From: Capsaspora owczarzaki ATCC 30864 | Lineage: Eukaryota; Opisthokonta; Filasterea | Reading direction: 5' to 3' | Length of the DNA stretch: 64,000 nucleotides | NCBI RefSeq assembly: GCF_000151315.2 | Contig: NW_011887293.1 | Coordinates: 2,577,926-2,641,925, forward strand | Part shown: in pieces, positions 19,269 through 56,865 of the stretch | Numbering within the stretch: the stretch's first letter is position 1 | How the letters are laid out: every line of letters starts with the position of its first letter | Program-made: the position numbers and the translations under genes | The notes under the pieces: model-generated | What the model saw: only the letters and a program-made list of their open reading frames with translations | The model's database searches: none | What the model was told of the DNA's origin: nothing

Positions 19269-22200
19269 CTACGCTGAAGCGTTAACAATTGCAGGAATAA
19301 CCTCAGGGAACAGGGCGCTCACAAAGCAGAGCATGGTGGTGCGACGTGTGCCAAGGCTCAGTCCGATTGCCGCTGACAGACTCTCCTCATCGTCTCCTGC
19401 TGCTTCACTTGAAAACAAGCCTATCTGGACAGAGGCAGCAGTGGCCAGAATGCTGGCCCGTGACTCTTCGGGTTGTTCCTGAAAGTGGTGGTACAAGTTG
19501 CGCACGGCTCGAAGGACATCGACGAGCCCGTTCGACTTGTAATTGCGGTGCCGTTTCAAGTTGGCCAACACGGCAGGAGGGAATCGACTCATCCAATCGA
19601 TCGTGGTCGATGCTGGTGGAGTGCTGCTGGGATTGGACGTGGACAGTTGACGGCAGATGGCTTCATTTGCACGAACGAGCTGCTCGTGCATTTGTGGGGA
19701 AGGCTCGCTGCACTCTTCCAGAAATTGCATGCGCTGCTCTTCCTTCCAGAAGAACGGGTGTTGCAGGGCTTGCAAAATTGTTGGTCTGCGGTCGGGGGTG
19801 GTTTGAGCATCTTGGTGAGCATGCAGCATGAAAACAAAAAGCCGTTCTCCAGTTTTGTTTGTTTGCTGGCAAACCTCACCTGTTCGACTGTGCTTGAGCG
19901 GTCATTGCGTCAATCAAATGACGAACTTCGTGCAGGTTGGTAGTGCCCAGGCATTTCTCAATGCGAGTCGGCCAGCTGTTTTCAAACCAAATATACAATC
20001 AAACAAAATTGAACGCCAAGTTAAGTTTCAAAGATTGCGTTATACGCGCAACAATTACCTGGAGGTGGCATGAAAGCATCGACCACGAGAAAGCAAAAAG
20101 AACACCAAAGCACCCATAGAGTACATGTCCGAAGCAGGGGACGGAAGGGCATCGCTTGGACTTTGCAGTCTACAAAGCGCCATTCGTCGAGTAAGTCGTT
20201 TCAATTCTTTTCGTAGTTCAAATGAGATCCCTTGAATACGTACTCTGGGGCTATAAATGAATGTAGTCCAGCATTTTCGGTCGTGCGACTGGTCGGAGTT
20301 GCATGGAACGCCGAGACTTTGACGCTGCCAAAACGAGAAGAGAATCAGCAAAAAATTTCGCGAGCAAAAAACAAAACTCTCCTCCAGCGTACCTGTTCGA
20401 TCCGGTCAGAACGATAGAGTCGGGAGACAAGCTTCCGTGGATAATGTTCATTCCATGGAGGAATGAGACGGCCGAAGCGATTTGGCGCACAAACCTGAGA
20501 AGGAAGCAGGTCGCATCGGGTCTTGCTAGCAGCTGCCTTGACACGGTCATAACAGCCTCCGACTGCAGTAAAGGATCTTGCGCGTGGTAGCTTTCGTACG
20601 AAGGTACGGAAAGGAACAAGAGCCTCAGCGGAATGGCAAACAGCTCCATTGCGATGAACACATCACCGGTTTTCGCGTCGATTTCCTAAAGTCAAAACCC
20701 AAATAAGACGATAAGTCAAAGACGTCACTGAAGATTGTCTCAACCAGCACGTACTTGACCAAAGTAGGTGAGAATGTTGGCGTGAATGGTAGTTTCCGAA
20801 ACTCGCAAAAACAAATCCACTTCGGATTGTGCAAATTGGGCCAAATCCGCCTCAAAACGCCGAATGGCGACGCGTCGCTGCTCGTACCGTCCAACGAATG
20901 TTTTGGACTTTGGCTGGCTGCACCAATCTGGAAGAGCATCAATCGTTAGTGTGAGCGGCAAACCCTTTTGTACCTTCGCAACGACGTAAATTTGCAGTCA
21001 GCCTTACCCATGAGTTTTGTTTCGTCAAAAGAAACTTTGCCAAACACATGCTCTGCACCCGCTACTGAACTTTCAAGAACGGGGTTGTCGGTCATTTCCA
21101 TCTTGTCGTCGTCCTCATCTTCAGAAGCTCCAGCAGCGTCGTGCTCCTTCTGCTCCTCCACAGAATCAGCAGTAGTCGTCAACGACGTGACCACCACTGC
21201 AGCAGGCTCTAACGCGAGCCGCGCCAGCGAGTCAGCGGCCGAATTCACGAGCAATCTTTTCGATTTGCGCGACTGCACGCGAATGGCATACTGGCGCCGA
21301 GCTTGTGGCTCCATCTCGACGAGTGCCACGATGCACTCGAAATGGCCCTGGCGCTCGGCTCGATCACGCGGTGTCGCACCAGTACGATCCTTGGCATCCA
21401 GTAGCGCTCCGCGACTCAGCAACGCTTGTACGCAAAAAGCATGTCCCATCTCTGCTGCGATATGGAGCGGGGTGGAGCGAAGTTCATCTCGACCGCGTAC
21501 ATCCAGCAGCTTGTACACTTTCGTAACGGCCTGCAAGCAATCTGCATAACCACTGTAGCAACAGACATGCAGAGGCAAGAAGCCTGCCGCATTGAACGTG
21601 GCCAGGGGACACGGCAGACTTGGATCATTGGCATGTTGCTCTCGCGTCTTGGTGTCGTTGAGAAGAGTATTTACGGCGGTGTGGTGCCCATACATGCAGG
21701 CCAAATGAAGAGGCGTGTTCCCACTCGCGTCAACGAGCGAGCTGTTGCAGTCGTATTCCAACAGCGCTTGCACAGCGGCCACGCGCCCAAGTCTGGCGGC
21801 AATGTGCAATGGTGTCTGACCAGAGCACGTAGTGGCGTTCACATCAGCCTCACGACGAAGCAGCGCGGGAATGCATGCCGATGCCGCAACGGGCGAAGCG
21901 GACGCAGCGGCATAATGCAAGGCGGTCTGCATGTGCGGAAAACCAGTGAGGATTGTACCACAGCAAATAATCACAAACAAAAATAGCAGACGTGTACCTG
22001 CTCAATTGTGCCATCTTTCTGATTCACATCGACACCATGCTCGATGAGCAGTTCCAAGACATCAATGCTGCCGAGCGCTATGGAAACAGAGCAGAAAAAA
22101 ATAGCGCGTCAGCATCTTTGGGGGAAGTTGTTGGCTGTTGGGCACAACACTGAACTGAACGAATCAGCAAAAAAAACGAAGAAAACTTGCCAGCAGCGAC

Positions 22201-23260
22201 ATGGAGCGGAGAGGTCCCGTCCCGCGAAAGCAGCTCCTGGGACGAAAGCGCCGGATGCACCAAAAGTAACCGTGCAATGGCATGACTGTTAAACCGAGCG
22301 GCAAAGTGCAACGCCGTGTAATCCCGACTATTCCGCAGATTTGGGTTGCAATGTGGGTGCTGCAATAGTAGTCGAGCCACTTCGACGTGACCTTCCTGAA
22401 CTGCGAGGAGCAAGGGCGAAAACCGCCGCTGTGTGTCACCCCGCGACGTGGATGCACCAGCAGCAAGCAGCAACAGGACGCTTTCTACACGACCTTGTCC
22501 AGCCGCCAGCGCGAGAGGACACAGTGCCGGCGAACTCGGACGGAGCGAGGCGTCTTCCGCCTGGCGCAGCGCCGCGACGACCGCGCGTTTGGTCCTGGAC
22601 GCAGAGCCCGAATCGGACATTGAGTCATGACGCGTGTTACTACCACTAGACTTGACCCCTTCTGACGGCACATGGTTGAGAATTGCGCTCAGAATTGGCG
22701 GGAATGGAACGGCCGAGTGAATGGCCGTCAACGTCGAAGCGGCCAGATTTCCATCCGCCAAAGAGCTCGATATTGGACTTGCAGATGTTGATTTCAGTAT
22801 TGCTTGTGCGTCGCAGTATGGGACTGCTCCGTTTGCTCCTGAAGGTGCGTACCAATTTTGAGCAACACAGAGTGAGTGATTCTACTGTGCAGCCCATCCC
22901 TTTCCACCACCGCCGCCGCCGCCGCCACGAGCAAGAATGAAGCTAGCAGCATGCTTGTTGGGTTTTGTTACCGAGGCCGAGGAGCAGCCGAGTCGCGTCG
23001 AGCTGGTTTGCGCTCGCCGCAGCAATCAGCAGCGTGTCGAGCACTGCCTGCGTGATGGCTGCCTCGCGCGATGTCTGCGGCTGCGGCTGCGACTGTGACT
23101 GTGACTGTGACTGCGATGACTGTGCAGTCGTGCCATCGCCACTGCGGTGCTGAGCAATCACGCGCGGGAGTGTCGTGCTCAGATGCGCTGAGAGTGCTGC
23201 CAAGTCACCCCGCTGCACGAGCGTCGCGAGCAGACCAACGAGCGTCTCGAGCGGGAGCAT
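19269..23260 (-). CDS. Ankyrin-pseudokinase-KEN endoribonuclease (RNase L-like)
   Basis: Ten exons: 23260-22972, 22838-22191, 22077-21998, 21926-21008, 20927-20755, 20685-20393, 20324-20244, 20169-20059, 19975-19880, 19785-19269; 1068 residues, every phase closing. About 11 ankyrin repeats span residues 75-550 (e.g. TPLHIAARLGRVAAVQALLE). A kinase-like domain (about 640-900) is closest to IRE1/RNase L: GKVSF-like start, HANILTYFGQ, FIAMELFAIPLRLL, HSFIAPE, SDMYSMGALVFFLL, RPTILQALQHPFFW. Its catalytic residues are lost: VAIK is VAIR, HRD is HGS, DFG is SAF. A KEN ribonuclease domain closes the protein with LKRHRNYK...DVLRAVRNLYHHFQEQP, keeping the Arg, Asn and His of the nuclease site. No transmembrane segment is present, unlike IRE1. 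Met 23260 is chosen because the frame further upstream runs into the transposon end. Intron 2 is GC-AG. Confidence 0.9.
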
Positions 23261-23522: not shown

Positions 23523-23551
23523 GAGAGGGCCTCCCTAAAAAGACTCAGTCC
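23523..23551 (+). repeat. Left terminal inverted repeat
   Basis: 29 bp, identical to the reverse complement of 26634-26662; preceded by TA. Confidence 0.95.
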
Positions 23552-23559
23552 AAAAACCA

Positions 23560-25218
23560 TTGCGCCCCCACCCTAAAAAGACTCAAACCCGATTATCTCG
23601 GCTTGTATTCCTCCCACCCCGCCGCCGTCTTCGAATATCAATGAACACTCATTCCAGCTACAAGGAAGACATGGTCAGACGGGCGCAGGAGCAACTTGAG
23701 GTCGGCCTCGCCCAGATTGCGACCGCGTCTCCCTTCCGCCAGAGGCTCCTGACGAAGGCCACCGCCCTCAAACTATACTATTTTGACCCGTTCCTATCCA
23801 CTACGGATGTCGGCGGAGCTCCGGGAGCCTCCGCCGAGCGAATCTGGACGACCCGCCAAATCGCCCATGCGCTGGGTCGATCGCAGTCCATGATCGCCCG
23901 CTGCATCAAGGCCCACGCCAACCTCGCTCCTGACATTCCTGGAATGACCTTAGATGAGTTGGCTGACGTTCTGCGCGAGGATCCCATCCAGGGACAAGGC
24001 TACGTGTTCACCGTCCCCGAGGAGCAAGAGCTCGTCGAGTTTGTCAAGCGGTGCTGCTTAGGAGCTGTCTCTCTGAGCAAAACGGAATTCACTCGATATG
24101 TGCTTGCAGCCTCGAAGGTGCCGAGGCCGGACGGCGTGGAAAGACGTCAATTTGAGCACGACAAAGTTTCCGACAAGTGGGTCAATGATTTTGTCGCCCG
24201 TCACAGCTCACAGATTGGCTGGCGCAGTAGCAGCGTGTTGGAAACACTTCGAGTGGCTGCTTTGAGTGAAAAGAAGCTCGGCAGTTTGTTCGCGCTACTG
24301 GCGGAGTACAGCAATCTTTACCCGACTCTTTTCGCTACGCCGGCCAATATTTTCAACATGGACGAGTCGGATTGCTCTGTGGGTCGTAAAAAGAAGCGTG
24401 CCCTGGCTGCTGTTGGTGTCAAGCGTGTCAGTCGGCGATCTGGCCGAACCATTACGATGGGACCGCATGTTACTGGTCTGTTTACTGTTTGTGCTGATGG
24501 CACCGCTCCTGTTGCGCCCCACTTCATTGTCGCGCATCCACGGCCCACTCTACCTCACAGGTGCACCGAGGGCCTGGACGAGGAGTTGATTCACCAGTCC
24601 GAGTCCGGCTTCATCAACGAGGAAATCTTCGACAAGTGGTTTCGAGATTTCGTCGAGGTCGTCAAGGAGCGAGCTACCACCACCCCCGTTCTATTGGTGA
24701 TGGATGGCAGCTCGTGTCACAAGTTCACTGTCGGGTTGATTGACCTCGCGGTGAGCAACAACATCCTGGTTGCGATCCTTCCATCGCACACGTCGACTCA
24801 CTTGCAGCCGCTCGACGTCACCGTCTTTGCCTGGTACAAGAACTTGCTCGAGACTCACGTGCAGTCGATTTTGGATGAAGACTCGCCACTCATCGACGTG
24901 AACATCAAGCTTCACGGGGCCATTCGGGCGTGGAACGAAATTGACGACCGATCCAACTTGATCCGATCTGGGTTTCGCCAAACTGGTATCTATCCGCTGG
25001 ACACGGAAAAGCACAAGACCCTAGCGTTGCCTTCCGTCGCTGACGTTGCCGTGTCTACGACCCCCCTCGCTGCACATTCCCGAGCCACCCCCGACCCCGG
25101 ATGCTCGGTATTCGGCGTTGTACCGTGTCCGTCAGATTGCCGATGCCGCCCTGGTAACCATTGGTTGCACTCCGAGAGCTCTACAGCAAAAGAGGGTGCA
25201 CGATGCAGCGGTAGCTGA
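23560..25218 (+). CDS. pogo-type transposase (DDE_1)
   Basis: The frame gives 552 residues; the likely start is the Met at 23641 (MNTHSSYKEDM). An N-terminal HTH (WTTRQIAHALGRSQSMIARC) and a CENP-B-like second helix region (VPEEQELVEFVKR) precede the catalytic core. The acidic triad reads FNMDES, VLLVMDGSSCHKF and LQPLDVTVFAWYKNLL, i.e. DDD, followed by the family motif GFRQTGIYPLD. The frame then drifts into low-complexity sequence where it overlaps the next open frame, which continues one base out of register. The DDE part is complete, so the copy may still be active or recently inactivated. Confidence 0.88.
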   Translation: MRPHPKKTQTRLSRLVFLPPRRRLRISMNTHSSYKEDMVRRAQEQLEVGLAQIATASPFRQRLLTKATALKLYYFDPFLSTTDVGGAPGASAERIWTTRQIAHALGRSQSMIARCIKAHANLAPDIPGMTLDELADVLREDPIQGQGYVFTVPEEQELVEFVKRCCLGAVSLSKTEFTRYVLAASKVPRPDGVERRQFEHDKVSDKWVNDFVARHSSQIGWRSSSVLETLRVAALSEKKLGSLFALLAEYSNLYPTLFATPANIFNMDESDCSVGRKKKRALAAVGVKRVSRRSGRTITMGPHVTGLFTVCADGTAPVAPHFIVAHPRPTLPHRCTEGLDEELIHQSESGFINEEIFDKWFRDFVEVVKERATTTPVLLVMDGSSCHKFTVGLIDLAVSNNILVAILPSHTSTHLQPLDVTVFAWYKNLLETHVQSILDEDSPLIDVNIKLHGAIRAWNEIDDRSNLIRSGFRQTGIYPLDTEKHKTLALPSVADVAVSTTPLAAHSRATPDPGCSVFGVVPCPSDCRCRPGNHWLHSESSTAKEGARCSGS

Positions 25219-30806: not shown

Positions 30807-33800
30807 CTACCGCCGAAAGCGTCGAAACATGTCAGCAAGCTCACTTGGAGTCGTGGCGTCTTCGGTCGACTTGTCCGTCCGCACCCTCAAAAACCGTGGA
30901 AAGCGGAGCGAAATACCGCGATCAGGCTGCTCCTCAATCAGGCCGGCAGCGGCAGTGTACACTGGACTCAGTGTCAGATCGGCGCCTCGGATTTCCCAGA
31001 CCTGACACGGCTCAAACCACACATCCGGCTGTAGCTGCGGGCTCACGACATAGTACGGCTTGGCTTTTGGGATGATTCGCGGACCGAGAGCGGTGGATGG
31101 CCCCGCCGTGCTTTCCTTCCCCTCGGCTGCGTCGCCTTCCTCTGGTTTGTGGGATGGGGTTTGGGTGTAGAATGCCAGTTGCTGCTTGTAAAACTCGTCC
31201 GAAAAGCCCGACATGCACTTGCACACGCTAATGTACTGCTCCGTCTCCGGGTCGTATGCTGCCAGAAGGAACGGGGAAAACCAGCCAGCCTTGCGTCCGT
31301 TTCCCCAGAAGGCGCCGATTGGGACGAGATCGAGCGACTCGACCATTCCTTCGACGTAATCGCGCTTGACCTTCAGCCAATTCGAACACCGCTTCGAAGG
31401 CTCGTACGTTGACTGACGCAAAGCCTCGAGTCTGTGCTGCTGTGACGCTGCGCGAGCAGGATTGCGTTCCCGCAGGCGATGATTCGGGACGCTAGTCTGG
31501 TCCGAGACAGGCTCTTCGGCATCGCCCGTGCGACCCTTCCTGCCCGCATTCTCTGATTCTTCTTCATGGTCGTCGTCGTCGTCGTCGTCGTCGTCACTTT
31601 GCGCAGCGGCATCACCCGCGTCGGACGTGGTCACACCAATGTGGGCAACCGTGTCGGCATCGTCAGCCGTAAATGTTCCGCGAGCACCGAGCGGCTTGAT
31701 CATCAGACCCTCGCAGGTCGCGTTGATCGCGTCATGGAGAAAGGCCATCAGCTGGTCCCGGGTATCCTCGCTAAAGCTCATTCCAGCCGCCTCGTCAGGC
31801 AGAGACCGTGTCACCGTTGCTGGGGTTGCAAGGGCTGGCTGCAGGTTGGGGCCAAACAGCATTTGAGGGACAAACTGGAAAAAGCCGGGTCGCTCTGCAA
31901 ATGTGGTGCGGAGCAGCATGTTTCGGTGACGAAACGGCGCTCGGAGCAGCGACTGGCCGTTCAGAAACATCAAGTCAAACGCAAAGATGCACACTTCAAC
32001 CTCCAGTTCGTTTGTGGTGACGTCTCGACGAGCTCGGGTCGACAGGGTCTGGAACGGGAGTACCTTGCCGGTGCTACGCTGAAAGGCAACAATCTCAGCG
32101 TCCAGAATAAACGACTCAATCCGGCTCGAGTCGCCGGGCAATCCCTCCGCGACCGATGCAGAAAGCATGCCGATCAATAGTTCGACAACATCCGGAAACC
32201 TCCCAGTCATGTCCTCGAGATGTCGGCTAAACAGTCTGACTCGCGGGGGGCCGTTGGAGGGCTGACGAGGATGCCACACATGGGCCTGCACGCGCTGGCC
32301 ATCATACTTGAAATCTGCAGCAAAGTCGCGCCCATCCAGCTCCGCAATGACATTGGCCAAGTCTTTGCAAATCTTGCCAAGCATGGGCTTGAGCGGGATG
32401 CCTGGTTGCAAGCGACACGTTTGTGCCACAAGAGCCACTCCACCCTTGAGCAGGGCTCGGAGAATAATCTCCCAGTTGGGCGCCTGGTTGTAGCATTGCT
32501 TGAGGACGGCTGCTGCGGCGGCAAGCCGGTCTTTGTCGGAGCGATCTGCCGTCGGTTGCAAGCTCGAGACGAGTCCATGGAGGCCTTCAAGCCGCAATCC
32601 CGGAGCGGATGTGCGTGCCAGCGACTCCAGCACAGTCTGGATGGGAACCTCGAGTGGCGAGGTGCGTGTTTCACTGGCATGTGCGAGCGCAACCAGAACC
32701 GTGTTGTTCACTGCGCCAATGCGCAGGTGCTGCAGAAAGATCCGCACCAAGTAACGCATTTCTTCCTCGCGCGTGCACACCAGAAGGCGCTTGATCAGGT
32801 TTTTCTTTTGCAGCAGCGACCCGTGTCCTAACAGAATCGCAAGAATGTCAAACACCAACGATCAATTTCGGAATCCACCAAGCAAAACTCCAACGTTGCC
32901 AAACGCATCCCAAGACTTGCCTTTGATCTCTGCGATTTGCCGCATGGTGCGAAACACGGTCGACACGGTCAGGGGCTTTGGCGCAACCAGAACTCGCATC
33001 GAGGCCCGGGCCTTCTGAGCGATATCTCCCAGATCCCCGAGTGTCTCGTATTCATGCTTGATTTGCTTGAGTGACCTGAGGGAAATCCAACAATCCATTG
33101 GTTTGAGTGTTGGCACAGAGGTTGCTTGGAGGGAGGCTCGGCTCATCTTGCATACGACACAACAACAACAAAGGTATTGTGACAACAAATGCAGGAGGGG
33201 AAAAACTTACATTCCAGTCACCTCAGACACTGCACTGACCATCGTGTGGCCGCCAATCGACATTTCATCGCCCGGTTCGTAGGAAGGGGATGTGCGATTG
33301 GTCGTCAAATACACGGCAGGCAACAGGTCTTGCGGCGCAGCATCAATGATTGAACGAAACATGTCAGTGAGGAGCGCGGTAATCGTGAGGCGCCCTGTGT
33401 TGGCCTCGACAGACGAGTACGTTCGAGCCAGCGTCAGGAATGGGGTTTGGGCACCGACTTCCAATGAAGCGCGTTGTGATACAGGGACAGCGGCCGTTGC
33501 CGAGATGAGCGTCTGGCTGCTCGATGACTCGTTGGGGCGAGCAGGCAGTTTTTCGTCGTCGAGCATGTCCAAGCGCACTGGCCTGGTGTCGAGCGAACGA
33601 GATGGAGAGGAGGCAGATGAGGACGAATGCGCATGTGCAGAGCGTGTCAAGGTTGATTGAGCAAGGAAAGCTGCGGCAATTCCGACCTGGCGCGCTTTCA
33701 TCGGCGACGACTTGTCAGTCTCGGGGGACGCAGATGCAGATGCAGCAGACGACGACGACAAAGCGATACCCGAGCGACTAGATTCGTCGAAATACTGATT

Positions 33801-36203
33801 GACTGCTCGTTGAACATTGCCACTCGTAAGAATCAGCAGTCGCTGAAGGCGCGCGCGCGATGTGCCTGGAGGTAACATGGCCGCGAGCTGCGATAAGGAT
33901 GCCTCTCTCGCATCATCTGCTGAATCATGGTTGTTCAAAGCAGCGGCTGTTCGAGGGATGTGGAGGTTTACAGAACTGCCGCTTGCAGTATTTCCACTTG
34001 CAGTTATCGCACTTGTTGTAGGGCGGAATTGGGCCGAGTCGGACGGTGGTCGAGATGTACTGTTCAAGCACGAATCCAAGTGCTCATTGATCTCGGAGCT
34101 GGCCATTGTGGTTGAGCAGATTGGACAAGAAACCTTCGACTTGTCATCTGGCTGAATCGCAATACCGGGTTCATCAGATGAGTTCTCGTCCGAATCATCA
34201 TCAATGGACAAAACAGTGGTCGCATCGTCATGCTGGACGCTCCTTTTCCTAGCACCGACGGAATCAGCTGCGGCGACGCTTCCATTGCCAAACAGGGCGA
34301 GAAAGTCCGCACGACGGCTTTTGACGTCCACCAAATCAGCAAAGTAGCCATTCAGTTTTTCCGCCTTCGAAGCTGGCGCATCACGGCCCACGACTGTTGG
34401 CACAATCCGCTTGGGATGGAGAAAGGACACAAATTGTCGCAGTTCCGTAAAACTGCTGTGCTCGCTGTAAGGAATGGAATACACCTGGATGTTGTCACGC
34501 TGCTCGAGCGAGTACTTGACACCTTTTGCCGACGTCGTGGCGTACTTGAATGTGTATGTCCAACCCGTAGGTAGGAAGGCGACCACTAGCGACCGAGGTG
34601 AGAACGAAAAAAAAAAAGTCACTGAGAACCGCAAAACAAACCAACCAACCGGCCAACACCAAACTTAAATAAGGCCGCTTACGTCGATCGAATCGCGGCG
34701 CATAGTGAGCAAGCATCTTTGTGAGCAAGCTGTGATTGGCATTGAATCGCCAGCCTCCAGGTGCCATCTCGCCGAGGAAACCCCAAGGAACCTTGGTCAA
34801 ACAAGCTGTCAGAATCGAGCAGCAAACCGACAGACTGCAAAAACCCGAAAAGCAAAATATTGCTTACAACATGAACGGGCGAGTCGCGCCAATCAAGCGA
34901 AAACATGCTCATGTCAATGCCTTCTTGCAGCGCGAGAACGGCGTGTTTGCGCTCGTCGACGACGATTTTACAACCACAGCGTCGCGAAACTTCCACATAG
35001 AGCCGCTCTTTACCAATGACGTAGGATGCGATGAGAAACAGCGTTTTCACCCGGGAAAAGTCGCCATCGGATGCGAGGCGTTGGCTTTCATGCGCTGCAG
35101 CGTCGTCATCATCAACGCTCAGCTTGACTCGTTTCGGCGCAGGCGGGAGAGCGGCATTGTCTCCTGCCGGTTGCAGCTCAGACCTCATCATGTTGAAAAC
35201 AGTCTCTGCAACAAAGTCGATCGGCGCGTCTTGCGCCGGCAGTGTGTATTTTGGGTTGCAGTAGGTTGTGTCGAGGAAGAGTGTCTCAATCTGTCCAATG
35301 GGAGCACCAAAAAGTCAAGAACGAGCAGGCTGCTGCTTGGATCCAAAACGGGATGCGTGACCAACCTGATTCTGGGCCTGGATAAGCGCGGGATAGTCAT
35401 TCATGCGGGGATGGTAGCGAAAATCACCAGTATGCAGATACACCAGTCCGTTGGAAACCTTGAAGAGCATCATGGCGGCTCCGGGGCAATGGTTGGCATC
35501 CATCAGCGTCACTTGCACATTGTCAATCGTGACAGGTGTGTTGAACTCGAGCGGTCGGATCATTCTGAGATAGCCGGAAAAAAAAACATTGTGGCTCAGA
35601 TTTGGCTCAGATTTGGCGAGTCGCACCACCACATCAACAAAAGGCACATGAACCACGAACATCTCACCTTTCGTCAACCTCCAGCACCTTGATGACAAGT
35701 CGGGCTGTAGTCGGTGAGCAGAAAACGGGACCTGAAATTTTGTGGCAGAACGCCGAAATTCTCAGAATTGGTTCTTATTGTTGTTGACCCCCAATAAATC
35801 ACCATCATCATTTGTCTTTACCTGCACGCCACGTCTTGGTGAGTCCCGCGTAGTGATCGGCGTGAAAGTGCGACAGGAAGAAGAGCGGTCCGCTGTGAGA
35901 GTGCGGCTCCATTGCAGCAATTCCGTCGTCTAGCTCGATGCCGTCCACTTCGATACCAGTCATGCTACTGCTAGTGCTGCTACTCGGTGATTCTGACGCC
36001 GTGGCGAGCGCAGCCGGTGGCATTGACTGAGCGTTGTCACTCTTCGTGCTCGCCGTCCGCGTCATCGCGACTCGCGGTGCTGTTGCTGCCGCTGTTCCTG
36101 CGCTGCTCCCGCTCGCAGAGGATGCACTGATCGACTTGTTGTACTCTCGGAACGCATCGACGAGAAACCGCGTGCCTGGGATGCAATGGTGGGGCGGCAC
36201 CAT
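30807..36203 (-). CDS. SNM1-type nuclease / UBZ / DNA ligase fusion (LIG6-like)
   Basis: Eight exons: 36203-35822, 35731-35668, 35564-35366, 35290-34868, 34791-34683, 34585-33211, 33075-32921, 32827-30807; 1575 residues, every phase closing. Residues 1-475 are an SNM1/Pso2 metallo-beta-lactamase plus beta-CASP nuclease: IPGTRFLVDAF, LSHFHADHYAG, GPVFCSPTTARL, DANHCPGAA, HTGDFRYHP, LPTGWTYTFKY, YSIPYSEHSSF. A UBZ-type finger (CPICSTTM..NEHLDSC) is near 545-567 and a UBA/CUE-like helix set near 625-665. Residues about 770-1575 are an ATP-dependent ligase I: motif I FKYDGQR near 1090, FILDAEIVAF, CEGLMIKPL, NWLKVKRDY, LRFPRFLRVR. The exon-5 acceptor (CCAAG at 34792) was chosen because it restores SPVHVVPWGFL. 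Intron 7 is GC-AG. The architecture matches plant DNA ligase 6 plus ubiquitin-binding modules; a role in strand-break or crosslink repair is expected. Confidence 0.93.
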
Positions 36204-52300: not shown

Positions 52301-55300
52301 TCATCGAGTAACCAGTGTGGCGATAAGGGCTCTAAAAGATGGGCGATCATCGGCAGCTTCATCCAGACATTCGAGTGCCAGAGCGACAAGCTTGACGGCA
52401 CTCTGGAGCTCGACTTCCGTTGGTTTGAAGGCCGAGTCCAGCAACTCATTGACGGTTTGGTATTTAATAGCGTGCCGCGCTTCCGACTTCAGTCTGGGAC
52501 GGGGCTTGGCGGCAGTCATTAACTCGAGCAGAATCATACCAAAGGCGTAGACATCCGTCTTGGTGGTCATGAGGCCTTCATCAAAGAACTCGGGAGACAT
52601 GTAAGGAACGGTACCTTGGATACTCTGGGTGCGAAGGTCGCTTTTCTCATCGAGGGAGGCAGCACGAACGAGGCCAAAATCAGAGACTTTTGCGTTGAAT
52701 TTCGCATCCAAAAGCACATTGTCAGTTTTCAGGTTGAGATGGAGCAGAACATGACCAGGAGAGAAGGCTGTCTGGATGTAGTGCATCCCACTAGCAACAC
52801 CAACCGCAATGCCATGGCGCTGGGACCAAGTTAACGGAGGAGTACTGTTCTTCAGATTCAAGCGGTCACGCACAGAACCGTTTGGCATAAACTCGAACAC
52901 CAAGCAATATTCATCGTGACTTTCGGCATGGGATAGAAGGGCAATAATGTTGGGGTGACGAAATTGCGACAGGGAATGCAATTCCGATTGAAATACGATA
53001 TAGCCTTGGATTGTTTCGGCGGACAGCCTCTTGATGGCGACGTGTTGGCCGGAAAGACTGGCGCCGTACACACGACCAAATTTTCCTTTGCCGATCAGAG
53101 AATCATCCACAAAATTATTCGTGGCGGTGACAAGAGCTGCGAGAGAAACTTGAGGAATGGGTTTGGCTAGATTTGACCCGGGTTGGTGGCGCTTAAGCAC
53201 GTCGATCCGATCGAAAGCCGACTTCGAGTCATGATTCTTGGGAGCGCGCCTCTGACTTTTGACCGGGAGATCGGAGCCAAGTTGTCGTTGCAGCCCCTGA
53301 TCTGTGGCAGCGCGATTTGAGCGAAAATGTTGCAGTTCCTGGCCTTGGACAGCGTGCTTCAGCTCCTTAACAACGAGACTTGAGCGAAGTTGCTGCAACT
53401 CCTCATTTTTGGCAGCCAGCTCCTGGTCTTTGGCAGCGAGCTCGGAGCGCAATTGCTGAATTTTTGCAGCGAGGTCCGTTTGACTGAAAGCTGTCATCCG
53501 AGCGTCATCGATCGTCCGTTCCTCGTTTAACCCAGTTTCAGCCCCCGACAATCGTTTCAGGATCTCGCCGAACGAGGGTCGATCAACTCCATCGAACTCG
53601 AGGCAAGCAAGCGCAAGATGCGCGAGTGCGGTAGCAAATACACTCTCTGGTACGCCCCACACGACCGACGTATCCAACTCCGAATCGAGCCGACCATGGT
53701 TTTTCAGCGCACGTTTCACTGCGCTTCCGAGCTCGATACCAGGCTGCTTCCCAGTCAGCAGCTCAAGCAGAATCATGCCGTACGAGTACACGTCCGTTTT
53801 GATGGAGACTTTGCCTTCCTGGTGGTACTGTGGGCAGATGTACTTGTATGATCCTGCAATTGTTTTCGTTTTGATGTAGCTGTGAACATCCACTTGAGCT
53901 GGCATGGAGCGTGTCAGACCGAAATCGGCGACCTTGGCGTGAAAGTCAGCGGCCAATAGCACATTGTCCGTCTTGAGATCCAGGTGGAACAGCGGCTGAC
54001 GCGGAATGGCAGTCTGGACAAAGTGCATGGCGTTTGCAATATCGGTGGCAATGGTTCGGCGCTGCTGCCAACTCAATGCGACCATGCCACCCTTGCGATC
54101 GAGACGATCGCGAACAGAACCGTTCGTCATCAGCTCGTAGACCAAGCAGCGCTCGTTGCCTTCCTGAGCATAGCACATGATGGTGACGATGTTCGGGTGA
54201 CGGAAACGCGCGTGGGCTTCCAGCTCTGACTCGAACTGAGCCACGCCTTGCATCGAATCTGCTGCCAACCGTTTGACCGCAACTCGCTGACCGCTCCACA
54301 CACCAGAGTAGACGCTGCCAAATCCACCGCCACCGATGCGCCTGGACTCTGAAAACTGCGCTGTTGCTTGCGACAGAACTTGCAACGACACTCGCGGAAT
54401 GGTGGTGGCGATTGATGGGATCGTTGTGACAATTCTTGAGAGTTGTGTACTTTCTATGGAAAGCTGCGATGCTGTCACCTGTAGTTCTTGCCGGCCGGAT
54501 GAAATCAGTTTTTCTGCGACATGTGATGCAGCTTTTGTCGCTGTGCTTTGCATGTCACTGGACCAAGGATCCAATTGAACAATGATACTGCCAAAAGATG
54601 GGCGATCGGCAGCTTCGTCGTCAAGACACTCGAGCGCAAGCGTGACAATGTTGCTGACGCTCTGGCGCTCGACTGCATTTCGATCGAGGGCCGAGTCCAG
54701 CAACTCAATGGTGGTCTCACCGTCAACAGCTCTCCGCGCGATTGATTTCAGCCGAGTGCCGGGGTTGGCTGCAGTCACCAGCTCAAGCAAAATCATGCCA
54801 AAGGCGTAGACATCTGTCTTGGTGGTCATGCGGCCTGACTCGAGGAGTTGCGGACACATGTAGCTCACGGTGCCTCGAACATTCTGGGTGCGAATATAGT
54901 TCTTGACATCGAGATGCGTGGCAGCACGAACGAGGCCAAAATCAGAAACTTTCGCACTGAAGTGTGCGTCCAGCAGAACATTGTCGGTCTTGAGGTCGAG
55001 GTGGAACAGAACATGGTCAGGAAAGGCGGTTTGGACATAGTGCATGCCGCGGGCGACATCGGCCGCAATTCGATGGCGCTGAGACCAGGTCAGCGGAGGA
55101 GTGTCGTTTTTGCGATTCAAGCGATCGCGCACAGAACCGTTTGGCATGAACTCGTAAACCAAGCAGTATTCACCGTGGGATTCGGCATACGACAGAATAG
55201 TAATGATGTTGGGGTGACGAAATTTCGAAAGAGTGTCCAATTCCGCTTTAAATTCAGTGTAACCTTGGATCGATTTGGCGGACAGCCTCTTGATGGCAAC

Positions 55301-56865
55301 GCGTTGGCCTGAAGGTAGCCTGGCGTCGTACACGGGTCCAAATGCTCCTTCGCCGAGCAGAGTATCACCAGCAAAATTGTTCGTGGCGGAGACGAGAGTG
55401 GCGAGAGGGACTCGTGGGATGGGTGCGTTAGGGATGTTTTGCTCGAGGAAGGCGATCCGACGATCCTTAGAAGCGACCTCGGAGCGCAATTGCTGGATCT
55501 CAGTTGCCGCTGCGATCTGAGTCAATTCGGCAGGCGATCGAACTCGCTGGGAGTTAAGTTTGCTATTACCAAAAAAAAGGTAAATTTCGCGAGAGCAAGT
55601 GAATGATCAATTGTTCGGATTTTGCTTCATGCAAAACTGAAAAACTGGCCGGCAGATTCTTACATCAATTTACAAATGGCATTACCCGTTTGTTTGAGTG
55701 CATTGATTCCAGACGTGGTGAAGAAGTTCTCGCTCAAACTGTTGTCGGTGACGTCGTAAGATTGCAGCATGACTTTGACGATTGTTAACGCATATCAAAG
55801 CAGCAATAATTACTCGAGCTCCGCCAGCGTCTTGTTCACTTTGAGCGCCTCAGCGAACGCTTGTGCACCGGCATCGCCAAGCTGGTTCTTACTCAAACTA
55901 TCCATCCCTCCGTCAGTAACCAACACTCTTGAGATCCTCTGCTGCACCACCCACTCATAAACATCAGTCAAATTGAGAGGCCTTACTGGAGCCTTGTCAG
56001 CGCCTTGTTTACTTTGATTGCTTCAGCAATCGCCCGCGCTCCAGCATCGCCGATCGCATTCGTGTCCAGACTGTCTCCACCAGTGAGCACCCTCAATTCC
56101 CTGTGTTGAAATATCCACTCGCAACCATTAGTCAAATCGAGATGCTTTACCTGAGCCAAGTAAGCGTGGTATTCACTTTGAGTGCCTCAGCAATGGCCTG
56201 CGCGCCAGCGTCGCCAATATGATTCTGCCAGATACTGTTTCTCCCTTTCATCAGTGAGCACTTCATATGATCTTACTCACATGCATCAACAATGCGAGAT
56301 TGCTTACGTGACCCATGTCAAGGTCGTATTCACCTTGAGTGCTTCAGCAATGGCCTGCGCTCCAACATCCCCAATCTGATTGCAGTCCAGACTGCCTCGT
56401 CCCCTCCATCAGTGAGCAGTCTTCATGCACTTGCTGCATCATTCGCTCACAGACATCGGTGAGACTTTACATGAGAGACGTCAGCGTCGTGTTCACTTTG
56501 AGCGCCTCAGCAATCGCCAGTGCTTCCTCATCACCAAGCTCGTTGGTCAAACTGTCCATCCCCACCATCAGTGAGCGCATGTCAACGTCCTCTGCTGAAT
56601 GACCCTCTCTCACATGCATCAATGCATCAGTCAAAGTGCGACGCCTTACCCGATTGAAGCCATCAAGTTCCGGCCGACTTGCCCAGCAAACCACCCACCA
56701 ATGCTGTTTACAACTTGACTCAGGCTGTTCTCCGTTTCGTCAGTACACACGCTGTCATCGTGCTCCATAAACTTGGGTGTTTTCTTACTTGAGCTTCCCA
56801 CTTGCATTCTTGACTCTGTCGTACAGCTCGCGCTGTCTCTCGGTCATACTCTGATACGACAGCAT
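52301..56865 (-). CDS. LRR protein with three tandem TKL kinase domains
   Basis: About 1330 residues. The start MLSYQSMTERQRELYDRVKNASGK (56865) is homologous to the neighbouring gene. A degenerate LRR exon, five 27-28-residue LRR exons and a cap exon (LSENFFTTSGINALKQTG) follow, then one 3262-nt exon (55562-52301). That exon encodes three kinase domains in a row: K1 from VPLATLVSATNNFAGDTLLGEGAFGPVY, K2 from VSLQVLSQATAQFSESRRIGGGGFGSVY, K3 from VSLAALVTATNNFVDDSLIGKGKFGRVY. VAIK/VAVK and DFG are kept in all. The catalytic loop is HLDLKTDN in K1 and K2 and HLNLKTDN in K3, so K3 lacks the catalytic Asp. A coiled coil (QQLRSELAAKDQELAAKNEEL) separates K2 and K3. The exon has no stop or frame break. 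Function unknown; innate sensing or signal relay is possible. Confidence 0.88.

Follow-up and report, generated by a model that had tools for sequence, protein, structure and literature searches.

A predicted ankyrin-pseudokinase-KEN protein of Capsaspora owczarzaki with an RNase L-like plan and IRE1-like sequence

A stretch of 64,000 nucleotides from the unicellular holozoan Capsaspora owczarzaki ATCC 30864 (contig NW_011887293.1; hereafter the window) contains a gene, CAOG_01986, whose predicted protein resembles RNase L in plan and IRE1 in sequence, and carries a kinase domain more completely dead than that of RNase L. An earlier note, made from the DNA letters alone, had read the RNase L domain order (ankyrins, dead kinase, KEN nuclease) in this gene and had guessed a unicellular holozoan as its host; the domain order is supported by our analysis and the guess agrees with the species. 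On the evidence as a whole, we propose with moderate confidence that CAOG_01986 would be a soluble, ankyrin-gated KEN endoribonuclease which follows the dimer logic of RNase L, uses its kinase fold as an ATP-independent scaffold and responds to a trigger other than 2',5'-oligoadenylate (2-5A) bound in a pocket of the vertebrate type.

The coding sequence runs on the minus strand from 23260 to 19269, stop codon included, and comprises ten exons separated by nine short introns, eight of them GT-AG and one, after 22191, GC-AG. Splicing remains in phase throughout and generates a protein of 1068 amino acids, identical at 1068/1068 residues to the deposited CAOG_01986 (annotated as 'hypothetical protein' and also present in EukProt). 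The position and the ten exons given in the earlier note agree with this splice. For exon 10, the acceptor at 19785 was the sole one of four tried to place RPTILQALQHPFFW in frame, and it restores RPTILQ; the acceptors at 19865, 19846 and 19810 were rejected, the kinase frame being lost with each. The fusion between ankyrins and kinase is real and independent of splice prediction, since one uninterrupted frame in exon 4 covers ankyrins, linker and VFGKVSF, a strand which aligns to the one opening the kinase domain (VGKI in IRE1, IGKL in RNase L).

In Pfam, the protein matched ankyrin families (Ank_2 at 241 bits), Pkinase (52.1 bits against a cut-off of 31.7) and Ribonuc_2-5A, corresponding to the KEN domain (46.4 bits against 23.3). 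Out of 16 ankyrin-like segments from a simple register scan, 11 were kept at a score of at least 10.5 (residues 73-553), in agreement with the count of about 11 repeats made earlier, and five scoring 6.9 to 8.0 were left out (starts 17, 99, 131, 161 and 557). The motif RNY..RN...H was found as it had been described, at 977-979, 992-993 and H997, and residues Y979, R992, N993 and H997 are invariant across a five-protein alignment. A histidine and an arginine are described as required for KEN activity, with a contribution from the polar residue following the arginine (PMC3710099). A predicted model of the KEN domain, of moderate quality, scored far higher in VIA-align against IRE1 and RNase L than against other chains, with four RNase L listed; RNase L was not among the 50 Foldseek matches listed for this model. 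The full-length structure model was discarded (predicted local distance difference test score, pLDDT, of 31). The Pfam score, the alignment and the fold match together place the C-terminus inside the KEN family, as the earlier note had it: it has the KEN fold with the arginine and histidine of RNxxxH. RNA cutting is predicted from the catalytic residues that are kept. No segment of transmembrane strength and no endoplasmic reticulum (ER) luminal domain was detected by sequence scan and Pfam.

The kinase domain has lost its glycine loop, the beta-3 lysine (VAIR), the R, D, K and N of HRDLKPxN (HGSLSPDS), and both the D and the G of DFG (AFH), while the alpha-C glutamate, APE, the D and G of DxxxxG, and RPT are retained. 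Three lost motifs had been announced as VAIR, HGS and SAF; the first two lie at 665-668 and 786-788, whereas the third was misread by one residue and is AFH (806-808). The comparison of this fold with the RNase L scaffold holds only in part, as the kinase is dead in both proteins but RNase L keeps the lysine (K392), the HxD aspartate, the asparagine and the DFx aspartate (HQD/N, DFD) and binds ATP, these residues being lost in CAOG_01986. Conversely, CAOG_01986 keeps APE, RPT and the KEN tyrosine, and RNase L is without APE, RP and the KEN tyrosine. Since the two proteins have lost opposite residues, the simplest reading is that their common ancestor, at whatever depth, possessed them all and that the kinase died separately in the two lineages, which is the firmest evolutionary conclusion that we draw. 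Kinase-dead RNase L is reported to bind nucleotide still in the canonical manner (PMC4718504); as the residues involved are gone from CAOG_01986, its scaffold is probably nucleotide-free.

In RNase L, the 2-5A pocket has been assigned to ankyrin repeats 2 and 4 (PMC4061530), with contacts through W60, K89, F126, E131 and R155 (PMC5927464). These were turned into a pattern of five features, W60 and K89 in repeat 2 and F126, E131 and R155 in repeat 4, judged by sequence register only. Human RNase L displayed 5/5 features, but the pattern occurred in 0/9 CAOG_01986 repeat pairs two apart, none of which reached more than 2/5. Both first-half residues, aromatic and basic, occur in the repeat at 234 only, and the glutamate equivalent to E131 is in none of the nine pairs. 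The pattern is not absolute, because E131A and R155A are reported in a mouse study to inactivate RNase L only in part (PMC5927464). The earlier suggestion of 2-5A as trigger found no support here, and 2-5A acting through a vertebrate-type pocket appears unlikely. Searches of the genome with the OAS1_C, Mab-21 and STING families (PF10421, PF03281, PF15009) and with human OAS1 gave no match, although they were run without a positive control and do not show absence; NTP_transf_2 gave three matches, all of poly(A)-polymerase types. On another contig, an open frame at G000:C17:369499-369624 (locus L004, 271-2945) encodes a domain of the 2'-5' RNA ligase superfamily (2H phosphoesterase, at 109 bits) with a nucleotidyltransferase motif behind it, and overlaps a frame with a poly(A) polymerase central domain, the two possibly forming one fusion gene. 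The 2H enzymes include 2-5A-degrading members, which makes this frame a candidate gene of 2'-5' RNA metabolism.

Dimerisation is described as the step that assembles the nuclease in both RNase L and IRE1 (PMC4536996). With an RNase L-like build, a deader kinase and no recognisable 2-5A pocket, CAOG_01986 probably shares this dimer logic but answers to another trigger. CAOG_01986 would rest as a monomer until its ankyrin array binds the trigger, which may be a partner protein or, leaving aside 2-5A in a pocket of the vertebrate kind, a nucleotide or nucleic acid. As in RNase L and IRE1, binding would pair two copies, the dead kinase folds serving as a back-to-back dimer scaffold with no need for ATP, and the paired KEN domains would then cut cytosolic RNA in a stress or defence response apart from ER-bound IRE1. 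A role in defence is a guess, no likelier than a stress response in which cytosolic RNA is broken down.

A six-frame KEN-family search of the genome recovered two loci, CAOG_01986 and C6:602467-602826. The second (G000:C6:602467-602826 and upstream) is the separate transmembrane IRE1 whose presence the earlier note had left to a genome search: one 969-amino-acid open frame encodes a luminal part, one strongly hydrophobic segment (mean 3.36), a kinase with intact VAVK, HRD and DFG, and a KEN domain. In a 9-sequence alignment, the kinase-KEN part of CAOG_01986 shared 27% identity with this IRE1, 28% with the human, 27% with a fungal and 24% with a plant IRE1, and 20% and 21% with human and pig RNase L, respectively.

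RNase L and CAOG_01986 are not alone in their domain order. Two ENA proteins, P0004 and P0005 (1778 and 1564 amino acids), have ankyrins, then a kinase, then KEN in Pfam, so ankyrin-kinase-KEN proteins exist beyond RNase L and CAOG_01986, and the kinase in them can stay active-looking. By eye, their ankyrin-like array consists of closely similar units of about 66 residues, apparently unequal in number between two otherwise very similar proteins, a difference that suggests rapid repeat expansion. They come from a profile search in which 8000 candidates were scored and eight reported (three with ankyrins and KEN, including CAOG_01986, two of IRE1 type and three with ankyrins and no KEN); RNase L was not among the eight, so this listing is no census. 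Word-based protein searches with the kinase-KEN part (7998 candidates) and the KEN part (891 candidates) returned CAOG_01986 alone. Known IRE1s, which match CAOG_01986 in the PDB, were missed by them, and their empty results are therefore no proof of absent relatives. Among viral contigs, none of 21 pattern matches was a relative. A 2013 survey mentions ankyrin repeats among KEN partners, with no species given at that point, and may mean RNase L itself (PMC3710099). Searches of the open PMC library, a scope with few subscription papers, brought up no paper on CAOG_01986, and no protist report of this architecture came up in them.

Unrooted trees were computed from nine sequences (CAOG_01986, four canonical IRE1s, P0004/P0005 and two RNase L) over 368 columns of kinase and KEN. 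Under the LG model, CAOG_01986, P0004/P0005 and RNase L stood opposite the four canonical IRE1s (approximate likelihood-ratio support, SH-aLRT, 88; ultrafast bootstrap, UFBoot, 80); this split was found with the kinase alone (89/52) and not kept with KEN only. None of six alternative topologies was rejected by the approximately unbiased (AU) test (p 0.134 to 0.746). Grouping CAOG_01986 with the Capsaspora IRE1 cost 4.9 log-likelihood units (AU p 0.134) and was excluded in the expected likelihood weight (c-ELW) column, and grouping it with P0004/P0005 was excluded in the bootstrap proportion (bp-RELL) column but not by AU. When 60 data sets per tree were simulated, the split was recovered in 5/60 with CAOG_01986 as sister to the Capsaspora IRE1, in 16/60 with it among opisthokont IRE1s and in 60/60 with it as sister to RNase L; owing to the low first two counts, an artefact under LG explains the split only in part. 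Data simulated with RNase L as sister returned that pair in 46/60, and the pair is absent from the LG tree. The LG+C20 model joined CAOG_01986 with RNase L (74/65), but in a saturated run whose log-likelihood (-6234.8) fell below that of LG+G4 (-6140.9) and in which three branches hit the upper bound of 10. Stems measured 1.2 to 1.8, the CAOG_01986 branch reaching 1.8 substitutions per site.

Concerning the origin of the gene rather than its mechanism, we see somewhat less than an even chance that ankyrins were fused independently to a duplicated IRE1 kinase-KEN module in the Capsaspora lineage, where the kinase decayed. Three protein searches without a close homologue (the best other KEN protein reaching 25-28% in kinase-KEN), the IRE1-type features kept and RNase L-type residues lost as described above, and the dissimilarity by eye of the ankyrin arrays of RNase L, P0004 and CAOG_01986 point in this direction. 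The tree nevertheless leans against the Capsaspora IRE1 as the closest relative, the searches were those that missed known IRE1s, and the single open frame of that IRE1 contrasts with the nine introns of CAOG_01986, which makes a recent local duplication unlikely. Recent copying of the local IRE1 is thus disfavoured as the source, and a deeper independent origin would be compatible with the trees, whose nine long-stemmed sequences cannot choose between the older and the independent fusion that the earlier note had set against each other. More tentatively, and with doubt prevailing, the cytosolic ankyrin-kinase-KEN nucleases may be one ancient, pre-animal family beside IRE1, founded with an intact kinase, which still looks intact in P0004/P0005 but died in vertebrate RNase L and, separately, in Capsaspora; an older RNA-decay switch triggered through ankyrins would then have been specialised later for 2-5A sensing.

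With the kinase-KEN part IRE1-like and the kinase dead, CAOG_01986 could instead have no nuclease role of its own and pair with the membrane IRE1 through the kinase fold, tuning or inhibiting it or bringing substrate via the ankyrins. Pseudokinases often serve as partners. We consider such a regulator improbable, the retained KEN catalytic residues being unnecessary for it. Lower still we place a true RNase L orthologue, for which nuclease and 2-5A triggering would both predate animals and Capsaspora would make 2-5A or a close relative. The identical domain order, the LG split from the IRE1s and the LG+C20 pairing speak for it; the missing 2-5A pattern, an identity to RNase L below that to the IRE1s, the loss of the split in the KEN-only tree, the absence of the RNase L pair from the LG tree despite its recovery in simulation and, with the reservation made above, the unmatched OAS queries speak against it. 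A decaying gene or a gene-model artefact, to which the degenerate kinase motifs, the long branch and a KEN insertion might point, is hardly credible for ten open, in-phase exons that encode the deposited, EukProt-listed protein with strong ankyrin matches and KEN active-site residues retained.

Coordinates of the exons, domains and motifs of CAOG_01986 in the window
Feature	Position	Strand	Content or basis
Exon 1	22972..23260	-	Start codon at 23260; aa 1-96; GT donor; protein match to CAOG_01986
Exon 2	22191..22838	-	Ankyrins; GC-AG intron next
Exon 3	21998..22077	-	Ankyrin
Exon 4	21008..21926	-	Later ankyrins, acidic linker and first kinase strand VFGKVSF in a single open frame
Exon 5	20755..20927	-	Pseudokinase N-lobe including VAIR
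Exon 6	20393..20685	-	Pseudokinase including HGSLSPDS
Exon 7	20244..20324	-	Pseudokinase including AFH; final codons run into APE
Exon 8	20059..20169	-	Pseudokinase including DMYSMG
Exon 9	19880..19975	-	Pseudokinase C-lobe
Exon 10	19269..19785	-	C-lobe end (RPT, HPFFW), entire KEN domain, stop
Ankyrin array, aa 73-553, about 11 repeats	21285..23044, introns within span	-	Pfam and register scan
IRE1-type pseudokinase, aa 633-910	19746..21047, introns within span	-	Pfam Pkinase and alignment
VAIR replacing VAVK, aa 665-668	20860..20871	-	Alignment
HGS replacing HRD, aa 786-788	20431..20439	-	Alignment
AFH replacing DFG, aa 806-808	20303..20311	-	Alignment
KEN domain, aa 911-1068; insertion of about 32 residues ahead of last helices	19272..19745	-	Pfam, alignment, fold match
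KEN catalytic set Y979, R992, N993, H997	19485..19541	-	Alignment

Elsewhere in the window, a DDE_1 transposase-like frame (stop to stop, 23539-25218, plus strand) lies 279 bases from the CAOG_01986 start codon on the opposite strand. On the minus strand, 33207-34664 encodes an SNM1-type DRMBL domain and the start of a DNA ligase N-terminus, and 30807-32861 the rest of an ATP-dependent DNA ligase, perhaps together one SNM1-DNA ligase fusion gene (30807-34664); plant LIG6 is a fusion of this kind. A 1101-amino-acid open frame at 52301-55606, also minus, contains three protein kinase stretches (438 bits over the whole frame).

RNase L is commonly regarded as a vertebrate invention, and a 2018 survey of 12 lower metazoans reports OAS as present and RNase L as not found (PMC6307210). 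CAOG_01986 turns the pre-animal ancestry of RNase L into a testable question: a shared origin of ankyrin-KEN proteins would give this antiviral effector a pre-animal history, and separate origins would mean that the same switch was built more than once. Capsaspora, with a normal IRE1 and an ankyrin-pseudokinase-KEN protein, offers a system for asking which role such nucleases had before there was interferon or 2-5A, and CAOG_01986 is a test case for the gating of KEN by a kinase fold without nucleotide-binding residues.

Among known systems, IRE1 (ERN1) shares with CAOG_01986 the kinase-KEN module and the KEN catalytic set and is its best fold and sequence match, but has an ER luminal domain, a membrane segment and an intact kinase (K, HRD, DFG), none of which is found in CAOG_01986. 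P0004 and P0005 have the same domain order and a KEN domain with RRKY and RNTYVH; unlike CAOG_01986, their kinase motifs are intact (VAVK, HRDLKPEN, DFG), their ankyrin-like array is of a different, repetitive kind, and their kinase-KEN identity to it is 25%. RNase L (RNASEL; PDB 4oau, 4o1o) resembles CAOG_01986 in its N-terminal ankyrins (9 in the human protein by the same scan, against about 11), its catalytically dead kinase fold, its C-terminal KEN domain with RNxxxH and the lack of any luminal or membrane part, and differs from it in having no long acidic linker.
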